A model generated the notes under the pieces. The model searched no databases. It was not told where the DNA came from and saw nothing but the letters and a program-made list of their open reading frames with translations. Shown piece after piece: positions 4,982 through 10,987 of a stretch of 11,003 nucleotides of DNA (position 1 is the first letter of the stretch; the number at the start of each line of letters is the position of its first letter). The translations under genes were made by a program, and so were the position numbers. Origin of the DNA: Cyclobacteriaceae bacterium (GTDB lineage: Bacteria; Bacteroidota; Bacteroidia; Cytophagales; Cyclobacteriaceae); contig JABFSY010000276.1 in NCBI GenBank assembly GCA_013140395.1, positions 1 through 11,003 of the forward strand, given 5' to 3'.

Positions 4982-6229
4982 TTATTTAGGTAAACTTAAT
5001 CGAATGAGATTCAGCACGGCTGCTGAAGCCATTTTAATATTGATCGCTCGATCGCTGGAGATTTGAAGTTTTTTCGTCACCGTTTGGTGTTTATCAGAGT
5101 AGGCAATCCACACCATCCCCACTGGTTTTTCAGGCGTAGCGCCCCCCGGGCCTGCAATGCCACTAGTTGCAACACCGATGTCCGTGTTAAATTTTGCTCG
5201 GACAATATTGGCCATTTCAATAATCGTGGGCTCGCTGACAGCCCCATATTTTTCCAGAACTTCCGGTTTTACACCTAGTTGGCGCATTTTTATCTCGTAG
5301 GCATAGGGTATCATGCTGCCTAAAAAATAATCGGAACAGCCCGGCACGCTCGTGATTAAGTGTGAGAGGTATCCTCCCGTACAACTTTCGGCCATCGAAA
5401 GAGTCAGTTTGCGTTCGCGCAACATTTTGCCAATCGCCACCTCAATCGATTCGTCCCCGTATCCATAAATATAGTCGCCAGCAATGACCTTCAACTTTTC
5501 GACTAACACATCGATTTCATTTTCTAGGTGTGACGAAGAATTGCTAAATCCCGTCAAACGAAGTTTTACCTCTCCTAAACTCGGAAGGTACGCGAGTTTA
5601 ATATGTTCGGGCAAGCTATTTTCCCACGGTGCAATTTTTTCCGCCAGAAAAGACTCTCCGATTCCTATGGTGCGAATGACCTTATGATAAATGTTGGGCG
5701 TATGAAATTTTTCTTTCAATTTCGGAATGACTCGCTCTGTCATCATCTTTTTCATTTCATGAGGCACTCCGGGCATTGACATAAATACCTTGCTATCTTT
5801 TTCAAACCACATACCAGGCGCTGTACCGATAGGGTTTGTGATTTTTGTGCAACAAACAGGAAGGGCGGCTTGTTGTCGATTGGGTTCGATCATTTCTCTA
5901 CCACGGCTTTTGAAGAAAGCAGTAATTTCTTGCAATGCTTCTTCGTGGATTTCTAGTTTGCAGTTAAAATATTTTGCTAACAATGGTTTTGTTAAGTCGT
6001 CACTAGTGGGGCCAAGCCCTCCGGTAATCAAAACAATATCCGCTCTTTTTTCAGCTTCAGCGAAGGCGGTCAGGATTTCATCCTCTTGATCGCCAACGGT
6101 GGTCTTGCGAATGACTTTGATGCCCACTTTGTCCAATTCTACACTCATCCACTGAGCATTTGTATCAACGATTTGACCATACAATATTTCATCGCCAATG
6201 GTCAATAGTTCTGCTAGAATTTTTTTCAT
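4982..6229 (-). CDS. cinA: CinA: MocF-like domain plus NMN deamidase domain
   Basis: A 415-residue two-domain CinA protein. The N-terminal half (about 1-170) is the MoaB/Mog-like COG1058 domain (LTIGDEILYG, then GGLGPTSDD at 70-78, and MPGVPHEM at 152-159). In CinA homologues this domain carries ADP-ribose pyrophosphatase activity. The C-terminal half (about 260-415) is the PncC amidase, which converts nicotinamide mononucleotide to nicotinate mononucleotide in pyridine nucleotide recycling. Its nucleophile is Ser282 in AESCTGG, with Lys314 and the SGIAGPGGATPEKPVG loop (356-371). In the segment after SVPG this copy reads LGSMIPYAYEIK where many homologues have GGVVxYSNxxK, so the substrate-side loop is somewhat divergent. 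Cytosolic. It starts 14 bases after the stop of the channel homologue gene, so the two are probably cotranscribed. Despite the name, nothing in the window links it to DNA uptake. Confidence 0.95.
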   Translation of the reverse strand: MKKILAELLTIGDEILYGQIVDTNAQWMSVELDKVGIKVIRKTTVGDQEDEILTAFAEAEKRADIVLITGGLGPTSDDLTKPLLAKYFNCKLEIHEEALQEITAFFKSRGREMIEPNRQQAALPVCCTKITNPIGTAPGMWFEKDSKVFMSMPGVPHEMKKMMTERVIPKLKEKFHTPNIYHKVIRTIGIGESFLAEKIAPWENSLPEHIKLAYLPSLGEVKLRLTGFSNSSSHLENEIDVLVEKLKVIAGDYIYGYGDESIEVAIGKMLRERKLTLSMAESCTGGYLSHLITSVPGCSDYFLGSMIPYAYEIKMRQLGVKPEVLEKYGAVSEPTIIEMANIVRAKFNTDIGVATSGIAGPGGATPEKPVGMVWIAYSDKHQTVTKKLQISSDRAINIKMASAAVLNLIRLSLPK

Positions 6230-6243
6230 TTTCGTTGATTTGA

Positions 6244-7194
6244 TTAATTGAACGCGGCAGATCCGACAAAAATCACGTTTGCCAGTACAAAAACAATAAG
6301 AATTGCTCGCGATCCAATCTTATTGACGCGTAAGCATTGATCTTTTTTGCCAGCGTCATACAGACGCAAGCAAATAGCGGAGACCAGCAGAATACTAAAG
6401 ATGGCAAAGAAGGTCAGTGTATGCAACGTGTCTACTAGCGTAAAAGTAGAAGATTCCGGAAGCAATGAATCGATGATGTACTTGTTACCAACAGCAGCAA
6501 ATAGACCGCCCACCGGTAGGCCAAAGCGCGGCTCGTGTTCCCAAGGTTTCGGTGCAAAACTGATCATGGCAATCAAAAAGGCGATGTACATGCCCAGAAA
6601 TATTTTCATAAATAAGCCCACTGCATCTCGCTGCAGATTCATTTCAATAATGAAAGCAGAAAACGTCTGCGGGTTTCGACCCGGACGTGAGTCTCCGAAA
6701 CCTGTTTCGTAGTGATTGGTTCCAACAGAAACTTTGAAATCACGGATGTTCCACCCATCAATTGCTTCGGTGGGACTGAAACGGCTACCTTTTTTGTCAG
6801 CCTTAAAAATCATGCTACTACTATCGTATTGAGAGTTTTCAATTTGCATACTCAAATGCTGCTGATCAAAAGGAAAATCTTGCACGTTCCACTTTTCTTT
6901 CATGGTAGCTTTCATCTTCATCATGACCCATTTCTGCCCATTTAAGCTATCCTCTATGGGGGTAGATTGCTCGTAGCCTTTAGCGGTGGGCATATCCAGT
7001 TGGGTGAGGAAATCATATTTTGGATTTGCATACAAAAACCAAAGCCAAAATCGGGCTGTATATTCCTTTTCATGAAAATTAATATCGTGTACACTGAGGA
7101 CGTAGGCGCCAACAGTCACCGTGTCGGGTTGCGCTAATGCCTTTCCACTTGGAAGCGCTAGTAGGAGTAGGAGCCAAATGGTTTTGGATTTCAT
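6244..7194 (-). CDS. Prokaryotic pentameric ligand-gated ion channel homologue (Cys-loop superfamily)
   Basis: A 316-residue predicted inner-membrane cation or anion channel subunit, probably homopentameric. A signal peptide (1-21, ending GKALAQ) precedes a beta-rich extracellular domain (about 22-190). That domain contains VTVGAYVLSVHDI (first strand), FPFDQQ (107-112, the pro-loop without the eukaryotic cysteines) and GWNIRDF (147-153). Four membrane helices follow: M1 about 191-213, M2 about 224-245 ending at LLP, M3 about 251-277 beginning TLVDTLH, and M4 about 295-314 (SRAILIVFVLANVIF). From memory of the Gloeobacter channel GLIC, the pro-loop, GWDIESF, the LP at the end of M2 and SR...FLLAN of M4 all correspond in order. 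The stretch holding loop A and its WxP motif seems missing. The protein ends right after M4. Expression probably extends into cinA. Ligand and ion selectivity cannot be read from the sequence. Confidence 0.8.
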   Translation of the reverse strand: MKSKTIWLLLLLALPSGKALAQPDTVTVGAYVLSVHDINFHEKEYTARFWLWFLYANPKYDFLTQLDMPTAKGYEQSTPIEDSLNGQKWVMMKMKATMKEKWNVQDFPFDQQHLSMQIENSQYDSSSMIFKADKKGSRFSPTEAIDGWNIRDFKVSVGTNHYETGFGDSRPGRNPQTFSAFIIEMNLQRDAVGLFMKIFLGMYIAFLIAMISFAPKPWEHEPRFGLPVGGLFAAVGNKYIIDSLLPESSTFTLVDTLHTLTFFAIFSILLVSAICLRLYDAGKKDQCLRVNKIGSRAILIVFVLANVIFVGSAAFN

Positions 7195-7242: not shown

Positions 7243-7313
7243 CAATTAATGGTAGCTAGCGGAAATATCCTTTTCTTGAGCTAATTTTCCATTTGAAAAC
7301 TAAACTATCCCTT

Positions 7314-7754
7314 ATGCATTCGTTACTACTGGCCACCCATTCAATTCTTCGCTATTTTATATTAATCAGCCTGGTTTGGGTCATCGCTCGATCGTTGGCA
7401 GGTTGGTTAAATAAAACTGGTTATGTTAAATTAGACGACCAACTAGGATTCGGTCTATTTATGCTCACCCACACGCAGTTGCTATTGGGCATTATTCTTT
7501 TTTTTGTAAGCCCGATTGTCATATTTAGTGGAGCCTCCATGAAAGTTCCTGCAGCTCGTTATTGGCTGGTAGAGCACAATACAGGAATGCTTGTTGCGGT
7601 TGCCTTCATTACGATGGCGCGTATAACGTCAAAGAAGATGACTGATTCCATTTCCAAGCATAAAAGGATGTTCATTTTTAATGCGATTGCACTAGCCACG
7701 ATCCTGCTCATGATTTTCCAGAGTAAACGTGGGTTTCTGGGCATCACTTACTAA
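7314..7754 (+). CDS. Small four-helix membrane protein, cytochrome b-like family
   Basis: A 146-residue integral membrane protein with four predicted helices (about 3-30, 44-71, 84-103 and 118-136). Histidines sit in or next to them: His9 in ATHSILRY, His53 in LTHTQLLLG, His88 in VEHNTGM and His116 in SKHKRMF. I recognise the pattern from Bacteroidota proteins often labelled 'cytochrome B'. The regularly placed helix histidines make haem b binding plausible, but it is unproven. No CxxCH motif is present. I start it at the ATG (MHSLLLATHS), which fits the family start, rather than at the in-frame TTG seven codons upstream. It is divergent from the channel gene, with 119 bases between the two start codons, and lies 62 bases before the OmpA-type gene. 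It could alternatively be a non-haem membrane protein; function unknown. Confidence 0.8.
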   Translation: MHSLLLATHSILRYFILISLVWVIARSLAGWLNKTGYVKLDDQLGFGLFMLTHTQLLLGIILFFVSPIVIFSGASMKVPAARYWLVEHNTGMLVAVAFITMARITSKKMTDSISKHKRMFIFNAIALATILLMIFQSKRGFLGITY

Positions 7755-7816
7755 TTTGATCGCAGAACTATATAGTGTTGTTTTTTAGACTTGATGCTAG
7801 CCAAAGAAAATTTCCT

Positions 7817-9577
7817 ATGAAACTCCTTTCGTTGTTTTTTTTGTTTTGTGTTAGTTATGTTGCCCACGCGCAAGAAATTAGCGCACGTTACGAGTTGGTT
7901 AAAATGAACGACAACGTAAATACTCGTTATAACGAGGTGTCGCCCGTTGTTTCACCAGATGGCAAAAGCCTTTACTATTTTGTGGCTAATCATCCAGAGA
8001 ACACCTATGGAAAGGACGGTAGTCAGGATATTTGGGTGTCATCACTGGATGATAAAGGCCAGTGGATGAAAGCCAAGCATTTGGGTGCCCCCTTTAATCA
8101 AAATCGATACAATCAAGTCTTTAATTTTATGCCGGATGGCTCTCTTTTTATTAGAGGCGGACGAAGCAAAAATTCGAAAGGGTTTTCAATTGTCAGTCTT
8201 GGCGGAAATTGGAATGAGCTAAAAGTGACAGATTTTGACGCGATGGATAAGGGCCAATTCAATGGCGCGACCATTTCAGCTGACGGAAAGCAAATCATCA
8301 TGTATTTTGCCGAGAAAGAGAAAGAAAAGTTTAGCGATTTATACTTTTCTTCTCAACAGCCAGATGGACATTTTTCGAAGCCTGTGAAGTTGAAAATAAG
8401 TTCTATAGCCGATGATTATGCACCTTTTCTCTCGCCCGATCAAAAGACATTGTATTTTGCCAGCAATCGGTTTGTAAAAGATCGCGTGGGGCAAAGTGAT
8501 GTGTATAAAGTAACTCGTCTTGACGACACATGGGTGAATTGGTCGGAACCGCAAAACCTGGGGAGAGCGGTCAATACCCCTTCTGAAGATGCTTATTTTT
8601 CAATTGATGCAAGCGGGAATATTTTCACTGCTCGTGCAGGTGCCACGGTGGACGGTGGCAACTTTGATTTGCTCATACTGAAACCACGAAATATCAAAAT
8701 TTTGTTAACGGGTATGGTGTTCAATGAGAAGACCAAGCAATCCCTACAGGCAGCCATTGAAGTGAAAATGAAAGATCAGAAACCGGTGAGCTTGAAATCC
8801 GGATCTGCGGGAAAATTTGAGACACATATCCCAGAAGTACCTGGCTATACTATCAGTGCCGCTGCAAGCGGGTTTTTGCCCTACACGCAAGATTTCAAGA
8901 TCCCTAAATTGTTGCATGACACAACACTTCACGTAGACATTTATCTGACACCATTGGCAAAGCAACTTACACTGGCTGGCGATGTATTGGATAAAAAGAC
9001 AAGCAGTCGAGTAGCCAATTCAAAAGTAAGCATTGTGTTCAAGAGCGATAGAACCGTAGATTATAAGTTAGCTAGTTCGGATGGAACATACCGACAAGAC
9101 ATTCCAAGCTTAGGATGGTATTTATTGGGTGCCTCTGCGGAAGGCTACTTAAATGCAAGCGATAGCATTCTGGTAGACAATGCTGACCTGACACCCGTCA
9201 CTAAAAACATTTTCCTGACCCCCATTGAAGTAGGGCTTACGGTTCGCTTGAAAAATATCTATTTTGATTTTGATAAAACTACCCTCAAGTCAGAGTCGTT
9301 TGTTGAATTAAATAAAGTGGTGGACTTCCTTAAACAAAATTCAAAAGTTTCAATTGAGATAGCAGGCCACACCGACAGCAAAGGCTCTGATACGTACAAT
9401 GCGAATCTCTCACAAGGGCGTTCTCAGTCCGTGGTTGACTATTTGGTGAGTCAGGGAATTGAAGCATCACGATTGGAGGCTCATGGATACGGAGAATCAA
9501 AACCAATCGAAACCAACGACACCGATGAAGGTCGCGCGAATAATAGGAGGGTAGAATTTACTGTGTTGAAAATGTAG
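7817..9577 (+). CDS. OmpA-family protein with PD40 propeller repeats
   Basis: A 586-residue exported protein. It has a type I signal peptide (1-18, ending YVAHA) with no lipobox cysteine at the cleavage site. A PD40/WD40-like beta-propeller region (about 35-290) shows repeated PDGKSLYY, ADGKQIIMY and PDQKTLYFAS strands. Two carboxypeptidase-regulatory-like beta sandwiches follow (about 295-378 and 385-468), then a C-terminal OmpA domain (about 476-586). In the last, IYFDFDKTTL opens the fold. Asp520 (GHTD) and Arg535 (NLSQGR) are the pair that contacts meso-diaminopimelate in peptidoglycan, spaced 15 residues apart as in E. coli OmpA. It therefore probably anchors an outer-membrane or periplasmic propeller to the cell wall. 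Proteins of this architecture are common in Bacteroidota, some next to type IX secretion components, but none is visible here. I chose the ATG at 7817 because the 14-residue upstream extension would bury the signal peptide. Confidence 0.9.
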   Translation: MKLLSLFFLFCVSYVAHAQEISARYELVKMNDNVNTRYNEVSPVVSPDGKSLYYFVANHPENTYGKDGSQDIWVSSLDDKGQWMKAKHLGAPFNQNRYNQVFNFMPDGSLFIRGGRSKNSKGFSIVSLGGNWNELKVTDFDAMDKGQFNGATISADGKQIIMYFAEKEKEKFSDLYFSSQQPDGHFSKPVKLKISSIADDYAPFLSPDQKTLYFASNRFVKDRVGQSDVYKVTRLDDTWVNWSEPQNLGRAVNTPSEDAYFSIDASGNIFTARAGATVDGGNFDLLILKPRNIKILLTGMVFNEKTKQSLQAAIEVKMKDQKPVSLKSGSAGKFETHIPEVPGYTISAAASGFLPYTQDFKIPKLLHDTTLHVDIYLTPLAKQLTLAGDVLDKKTSSRVANSKVSIVFKSDRTVDYKLASSDGTYRQDIPSLGWYLLGASAEGYLNASDSILVDNADLTPVTKNIFLTPIEVGLTVRLKNIYFDFDKTTLKSESFVELNKVVDFLKQNSKVSIEIAGHTDSKGSDTYNANLSQGRSQSVVDYLVSQGIEASRLEAHGYGESKPIETNDTDEGRANNRRVEFTVLKM

Positions 9578-9969: not shown

Positions 9970-10482
9970 ATGAATATCGAAGTCTTTGAAACCCGGGTGC
10001 TGCCTACGAAAAACAAGCTTTTTCGGTTTGCTTTCAGGCTTTTGGGCAGCAGCGAGGAGGCCAAGGATGTGGTGCAGGAGGTGATGATGAAGGTGTGGAA
10101 CGGACGCGAGCAGATGGGCGCGATTGACAACATGGAGGCTTGGTGTATGCGCATTACCAAGAATCTATCGCTGGATCGCCTTCGCTCAAAAGAACGCAGA
10201 ACGACCGATTCGATGCAAGAAGGCTTTGAAGTTCGTCAAGAAAGTTTAACACCGTACGAAAAAACAGAAATACATGAAAGCATGCAACGGGTAAATGAAT
10301 TGATTGAAGCACTGCCCGAAAAGCAGCGGCAGGTGATGCACCTTCGTGACATAGAAGGGTACAGTTACAACGAGATTTGTGAAATTCTGGAACTGGACAT
10401 GAGCCAGGTGAAAGTGAATTTGTTTAGGGCGCGAAATTTTGTGCGGGAACGATTGGTAAAATTAAATGCGTATGGACTCTAA
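9970..10482 (+). CDS. ECF-type RNA polymerase sigma factor
   Basis: A 170-residue sigma-70 family factor with only regions 2 and 4, the ECF layout. Region 2 (about 10-75) contains LFRFAFRLLGSSEEAKDVVQ and VMMKVW, followed by AWCMRITKNLSLDRLRSK, which would bind core polymerase and the -10 element. A linker (about 76-104) leads to region 4 (about 107-162), with LPEKQRQVMHLRDIEGYSY and a helix-turn-helix ending VNLFRARNFVRERL for the -35 element. Full length with no extra C-terminal domain. The start is the only ATG that gives the whole of region 2. It overlaps the next gene by about 11 bases, so the two are translationally coupled, as sigma/anti-sigma pairs usually are. A matching ECF-like promoter lies just upstream. 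The stimulus is unknown. Confidence 0.93.
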   Translation: MNIEVFETRVLPTKNKLFRFAFRLLGSSEEAKDVVQEVMMKVWNGREQMGAIDNMEAWCMRITKNLSLDRLRSKERRTTDSMQEGFEVRQESLTPYEKTEIHESMQRVNELIEALPEKQRQVMHLRDIEGYSYNEICEILELDMSQVKVNLFRARNFVRERLVKLNAYGL

Positions 10483-10987
10483 CGAAATAAAGGGATTGCT
10501 GGAGAAGTATTGGAACTGCGAGACATCGCTGGAAGAGGAGCAACAATTGCGCGCTTACTTTCGTGGCGAAGTGCCACAAGCGATGAGCGAGACGGCCGAA
10601 CTATTCCGCTACTTTGAGCTGCATCAGAAGATGACTGTAAGTGGCAAAGATTTTGATGCGGAGGTAAAGAAGAAGATTAAGGGTCACCGCCCAGCAGGAA
10701 AATCAGTAAAGATGTATGCCAACTATGCACGAATTGCGGCTGGCGTGTTAGTGATGGTGGCAGCTGGTTACTTTGTGAGACTGGAAGTGCGGAAAGCGTA
10801 TCCACCTGAAATGGAAGATACGTTTAGTGACCCACGTGTGGCACTAGAAGAAACAAAGAAGGCACTGATGATGATCTCTAACAGCTTTAACAAAGCACAT
10901 CAAGAGGCAGCAAAGATTGAGATGTTTAATGAAGCAGAGGAGAAAATAAAGGGAAAATCAGTAGAAGAAAAAAAAGTGAACATTTAA
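10472..10987 (+). CDS. Single-pass membrane protein, probable anti-sigma partner
   Basis: A 171-residue protein with a soluble N-terminal part (about 1-78, opening EIKGLLEKYWNCETSLEEEQQLR), one membrane helix (about 83-103) and a charged helical C-terminal part (about 104-171). By the positive-inside rule (KSVKMYANYAR before the helix) the N-terminus is cytoplasmic, where it could hold the sigma factor. The gene overlaps the sigma gene and has no other visible role, so anti-sigma function is inferred from arrangement and topology. It lacks the zinc HxxxCxxC motif of classical anti-sigma domains and has no FecR domain, so it belongs to another type, common beside Bacteroidota ECF factors. An ATG two codons upstream (10466) would also work; I prefer 10472 (MDSNEIK). 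The C-terminal segment EETKKALMMISNSFNKA looks like a conserved helical module of unknown role. Confidence 0.75.
   Translation: MDSNEIKGLLEKYWNCETSLEEEQQLRAYFRGEVPQAMSETAELFRYFELHQKMTVSGKDFDAEVKKKIKGHRPAGKSVKMYANYARIAAGVLVMVAAGYFVRLEVRKAYPPEMEDTFSDPRVALEETKKALMMISNSFNKAHQEAAKIEMFNEAEEKIKGKSVEEKKVNI

Follow-up and report, generated by a model that had tools for sequence, protein, structure and literature searches.

The gene at positions 6244-7194 on the minus strand of contig JABFSY010000276.1 (assembly GCA_013140395.1, a Cyclobacteriaceae bacterium) encodes a genuine homologue of the pentameric ligand-gated ion channels (pLGICs, also called Pro-loop receptors), and it belongs to a poorly annotated clade whose outer domain and pore set it apart. 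The whole stretch of DNA that was analysed, 11,003 nucleotides long, is referred to here as the window. The most likely reading is that the product assembles with itself alone into a homopentameric ligand-gated ion channel, which sits in the inner membrane and is gated from the periplasm, a reading for which our own estimate of the probability is about three in four; we infer the pentamer and the selectivity, and ion conduction and ligand binding from homology. The reading frame starts with ATG, contains no internal stop and has 316 residues. All coordinates given below for parts of this gene are on the minus strand.

Evidence for membership of the pLGIC superfamily

Pfam Neur_chan_LBD (PF02931), the first of two profiles that a preliminary description of this DNA had proposed as a check, matched residues 85-160 at 27.6 bits (curated cut-off 26), and it was matched at E <= 0.01 by all 40 members of the family alignment (A2). 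The score for NCBIfam LGIC_1 (NF033918) was 41.8 bits, far under its cut-off of 500 bits, and a second PF02931 match in the same genome was also far under the cut-off (E 0.055). GLIC scored 50.2 bits against an A2 profile built without the window protein, while 437 of 500 shuffled GLIC sequences scored, with a top score of 5.3 bits. A chance resemblance to pLGICs was ruled out by this control together with the predicted fold. DUF998 was considered as an alternative family and rejected (E 0.0076, 16.3 against a cut-off of 30; matched by 17 of the 40 A2 members at E <= 0.01). Because the whole model fits pLGICs, this match was taken as a general resemblance of membrane helices.

The predicted monomer contains eight strands of at least three residues plus short bridges, forming a beta-sandwich above four transmembrane helices, and aligns with solved pLGIC structures. 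A sandwich over a four-helix core, as expected in the preliminary description, was thus recovered in the model, and its assignment to the pLGIC family agrees with the profile matches. The extracellular domain of pLGICs is generally described as ten beta strands in PMC9897478, more than the eight longer strands, with bridges, predicted here. Residues 1-22 (7129-7194), variable in the family, look on reading like a Sec signal peptide, with a hydrophobic run, then ALAQ followed by PD; the N-terminal domain is apparently exported, as had been proposed. The presumed periplasmic sandwich covers residues 24-189 (6628-7125).

Jaiteh et al. 2016 (PMC4795631, Table 1) compiled the conserved residues of the superfamily, including an F/YPxD Pro-loop with Pro in 100%. 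Of these, the channel protein has FPxD, an aromatic residue in beta9, the arginine before M1 and the proline of the M2-M3 loop. Within its FPFD Pro-loop (residues 107-110; 6865-6876), P108 and D110 were present in 100/100 aligned proteins, and the Pro, F109 and the Asp are invariant in A2. W148 of beta9 and the pre-M1 arginine R189 (6628-6630) were likewise present in 100/100 proteins, and P246 of the M2-M3 loop in 99/100. The motifs FPFDQQ (107-112), GWNIRDF (147-153), LLP (244-246), TLVDTLH (252-258) and, in M4, SRAILIVFVLANVIF (295-309) follow each other in the order originally described. The M1 helix (192-213; 6556-6621) carries the invariant K197 (100/100) and G201; the latter, at M1 14', is aligned with the M1 proline of GLIC and is a minority residue in the table of PMC4795631 (Pro 77%, Gly 5%). 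M3 spans residues 253-280 (6355-6438), with D255 (100/100) and H258 invariant in A2, and M4, the least conserved of the helices, spans 284-315 (6250-6345), with N306 invariant in A2. A Cys pair flanking the Pro-loop was not found; the only cysteines are at 275 and 287, which excludes the protein from the Cys-loop receptors proper. It differs in this from the glycine, GABA-A and GluCl receptors; PMC4795631 gives the Cys-loop cysteines for metazoans.

Outer domain and pore helix of the clade

GLIC (Gloeobacter, proton-gated; PDB 3eam and others) is about 15-16% identical to the window protein and has in common with it the fold, the Pro-loop (YPFD in GLIC, FPFD here), the beta9 Trp, the pre-M1 Arg, acidic residues at -2' and 19', Pro 23', a short M3-M4 loop and an Asn in M4. 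The preliminary description had gone further and stated that the motifs recall GLIC motif by motif. This was not borne out: the hWxP/beta3 stretch of GLIC is absent, and the pore face of M2 differs from that of GLIC and is near-invariant in its own clade.

In the alignment of the family profile to GLIC, profile positions 20-61 correspond to GLIC 13-54 and positions 65-309 to GLIC 79-311; therefore, GLIC 55-78, which covers beta3 and includes IWIP, has a three-residue counterpart. The site of this missing stretch, beside loop A, is residues 61-65 of the window protein (7000-7014), where no WxP occurs. Three groups of matches were compared, using the 120 best-scoring rows each of 3236 (A), 974 (B) and 203 (C) matches. 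The spacing between G-x-[YF] of beta1 and the Pro-loop proline, which is 99 residues in GLIC, was 79 in 119/120 proteins of group A and in 116/120 of group B. Among the six commonest values in group C it was 84 in 71/120, 56 in 33 and others in few; for the value of 56 the pattern probably picked another site. No WxP was found within 85 residues before the Pro-loop in the proteins with a Pro-loop (0/120 in A, 0/119 in B and 0/119 in C) or in the locus proteins (0/100). As a control, the script detected hWxP in three of four sequences (GLIC, ELIC and a canonical Bacteroidota channel). It missed the motif in the fourth, GABA-A alpha5, where IWTPD is visible by eye, most likely by taking an earlier LPLD as the Pro-loop; the GABA-A sequence thus carries hWxP, unlike the window protein.

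The absence of hWxP is not new in principle. Tasneem et al. 2004 (PMC549065) attribute hWxP before strand 4 to animal receptors and to some of the bacterial ones, which implies that the remaining bacterial forms lack it. The hosts of bacterial acetylcholine receptor-type ligand-gated ion channels without hWxP include Cytophaga hutchinsonii; the Cytophaga channel described there is fused to MCP-N and Cache domains, while no additional domain is present in the window protein, and the passages on these channels do not mention the M2 signature described below. The loop C motif of the window protein, Y162-E-T-G-F-G-D168 (6691-6711; Y162 in 100/100), is retained in all three groups, as the pattern Y.[TSR].[FW]G was found in 120/120 (A), 115/120 (B) and 114/120 (C) proteins.

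The M2 helix (220-245; 6460-6537) is the least variable of all segments tested. From R223 (0') to P246 (23') it reads, in consecutive pieces, RFGLPVGG, LFAAVGNK and YIIDSLLP. In A2, the frequency of the top residue averages 0.95 over segment 220-245, where 20 of the 26 columns reach at least 0.95, compared with 0.84 in M1, 0.71 in M3, 0.46 in M4 and 0.51-0.85 in outer-domain segments. G6', F9', G13', N14', K15', Y16', I17', I18' and D19' are identical in 40/40 A2 rows. Similarly, the window protein and an Ignavibacteria relative (P0121) are identical at 19/24 M2 positions, against 50/165 in the outer domain, 7/22 in M1, 12/28 in M3 and 8/31 in M4, whereas the M2 identity to three group C proteins is only 5-6/24. 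The pattern R[FLY]GL.VG[GA][LI]FA..GNKY was found in 118/120 group A, 120/120 group B and 0/120 group C proteins. One group B protein (L008) departs from it, reading IASQY instead of VGNKY, and the signature is therefore not universal in the wider clade.

The pore-facing positions of M2 are well established for pLGICs. Since M2 matches GLIC and GlyR without gaps, the pore face is expected to comprise E-2', G2', G6', F9', G13', Y16' and S20'. The M2 of GLIC, NVTLVVSTLIAHIAFNILVETNLP, lacks the glycines, the 9' Phe and the 15' Lys of the window protein. The top PDB match of the transmembrane profile was 6fl9 (sTeLIC; E 9.6e-7; entered as a Cys-loop ligand-gated ion channel); it shares with the window protein a gapless M2-M3 match, Arg 0', Gly 6' and an Asp in M3, while its M2 differs and reads RIDLAGGNLLLFIAFNFTISSDLP. 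Single glycines at 2' or 6' do appear in the M2 helices of the PDB channels compared. Phe at 9' is a substitute residue found in 13% according to PMC4795631.

Proposed mechanism and rival explanations

After export, the beta-sandwich would face the periplasm, where a small solute or protons may act on it, probably where subunits meet beneath the conserved loop C. Alternatively, the stimulus could act on buried polar residues: K197, K238, D242, D255 and H258, all conserved, are placed by the GLIC alignment in the upper half of the transmembrane region. Three loops, namely the Pro-loop, beta1-beta2 and M2-M3, would relay the signal to the M2 helices, whose movement would then let ions through the pore. 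Glycines at 2', 6' and 13' would line this pore, and its gate would be formed by two aromatic rings, Phe at 9' and Tyr at 16'. The latter two are reasonable gate candidates because DeCLIC, also a pLGIC, is described in PMC9897478 as constricted at the comparable positions 9' (Leu) and 16' (Phe); DeCLIC also has an extra N-terminal domain, which the window protein lacks. Acidic rings at -2' and 19', placed as in GLIC, would favour cations slightly, with the M3 Asp 26' and Arg 0' opposed to them.

Several observations weigh against such a channel. Neur_chan_memb (PF02932), the second profile proposed as a check, gave no match for the window protein, even at E up to 1, and was absent from the families matched by the 40 A2 members at 0.01; that check was thus positive for the outer domain and negative for the membrane part. 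The three glycine rings, the 4' proline and the 15' lysine are unlike the M2 of the PDB channels compared, and ion conduction therefore cannot be presumed. Finally, tandem pairs with 60-67% identity occur in 4 of 80 loci, so heteromers are possible in relatives.

The rival that survives best, though we give it clearly less than an even chance, is an anion-selective channel akin to the glycine and GABA-A receptors. Arg 0' and the M3 Asp 26' are characteristic of anion channels in metazoans, a further positive charge close to the outer pore comes from K15', and 0' is R or K in 40/40 A2 rows. The assignment of D255 to 26' holds if T252, aligned with T253 of GLIC, is 29'; D at 26' and K/T at 29' are typical of metazoan anionic channels according to PMC4795631. 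Furthermore, GluCl, GABA-A and GlyR rank alongside GLIC in VIA. These points are opposed by acidic residues in 40/40 rows at -2' (33 E, 7 D) and by Asp in 40/40 at 19', as in the slightly cation-favouring channel outlined above.

A bolder proposal, which we regard as speculative and rather unlikely, is that the clade of Cytophagales, Chitinophagaceae and Ignavibacteria forms a separate class of pLGIC. Its members would sense without beta3 and hWxP, have a glycine-lined and aromatic-gated pore (G2', G6', F9', G13', Y16') and use a buried Lys-Asp-His cluster to couple protonation or lipid to gating; they would differ in permeation from all pLGICs characterised so far, for instance by having an exceptionally wide pore or by letting larger solutes pass.

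It is improbable that the protein is a non-conducting receptor, whose fold persists for sensing or scaffolding and whose M2 is conserved for packing rather than permeation. The glycines at 2', 6', 7' and 13' could permit tight packing, and the missing match to the Pfam channel model for the membrane part fits this idea, but the gating-interface residues are retained and no signal-passing domain is attached: 16 matches of the transmembrane profile in 14 of 395 genomes lie in frames of 318-377 residues, and none of them is another architecture carrying the same M2. Very unlikely, lastly, is that the channel gene encodes a subunit or regulator of a divergently transcribed small membrane protein (7329-7754, plus strand) and the envelope genes at 7293-9577; in 5/5 strong carriers, found in a set of 78 genomes of the window's family, the divergently oriented neighbour is the small gene, which also lies within five genes of the channel gene in 55/80 loci, but it is found in 65 of these 78 genomes against 6 for the channel gene, so that the small protein needs no channel, it is missing within four genes of the channel gene in Ginsengibacter hankyongi (L094), and the shared position may be simple synteny.

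Distribution, relatives and genomic neighbourhood

A search of a protein database clustered at 90% identity gave 3236 matches at E <= 0.001, some of which may be outside the clade. The best 80 of 130 relatives were kept from a profile scan of genome contigs, and they come from Cytophagales, Chitinophagaceae and other Bacteroidota records, in line with the Bacteroidota setting first suggested. The named rows among the 120 best-scoring matches read solely 'hypothetical protein', as had also been anticipated. Of 296 genomes drawn from the phylum, 15 gave a match to the A1 profile and 3 to PF02931, so Pfam alone overlooks most family members there. The window's own family has a channel-gene match in 6/78 genomes, of which five are strong. 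Among the papers found, no title or abstract opening pointed to this clade, though others may exist.

In a tree of 29 rows, in which the program flagged long branches, groups A and B were united at 99/99 support, with the canonical channels apart (93/86) and group C apart (99/99); the order of the canonical channels relative to group C is unsure. Group B is not one clade, as L008 falls outside A and the remaining B. Group C (Chlorobium, Desulfamplus and others) was rejected as part of the same clade because of its separate position and its lack of the A/B M2 pattern. Its model also has a sandwich and four helices (predicted local distance difference test score 87.2). Group C (P0241-P0360; Chlorobium, Desulfamplus and Rhizomicrobium records) is a second pLGIC branch without WxP, in which M2 is commonly of the RTAMPATALLT type and 3 of the 120 best-scoring rows have a precomputed Pfam domain.

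The clade is a good candidate for learning the physiological roles of the bacterial relatives of nerve-cell receptors. It also lends itself to testing, with naturally occurring proteins, what share of the loop A region is required for pLGIC gating. Seven of the 80 loci carry species names and no metagenome-assembled genome label (Pseudochryseolinea flava, Chryseosolibacter histidini, Chryseolinea serpens, Chryseolinea lacunae, Chryseotalea sanaruensis, Cytophaga aurantiaca and Ginsengibacter hankyongi), so knock-outs are feasible to try. A 682-residue relative in another genome of the window's family (L111:1706-3754, G340) joins an N-terminal part, which reads like a type I periplasmic binding protein, to a divergent pLGIC; in the PDB it matches the ELIC/GLIC chimera 4yeu best and ELIC chains next.

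No functional partner could be firmly linked to the channel gene from its neighbourhood, and the small gene was rejected as such on the genome counts given above. The small protein is hydrophobic with several histidines, appears four-helix-like on reading, and has no Pfam or NCBIfam match. Downstream of the channel gene, 14 bases away on the same strand, lies cinA (4982-6229), which takes this position in 12 of 96 loci, the window included; in 28/96 loci the gene there belongs to cluster 3, D-aminoacyl-tRNA deacylase-like on reading, and lies on the other strand. No RNA or tRNA features were found in the window. Elsewhere in the window are a TPR-repeat sensor histidine kinase (144-2237; TPR_12, HisKA, HATPase_c) and, at 9970-10987, an extracytoplasmic function sigma factor; the short gene after it has one membrane-helix-like stretch and may encode an anti-sigma factor.
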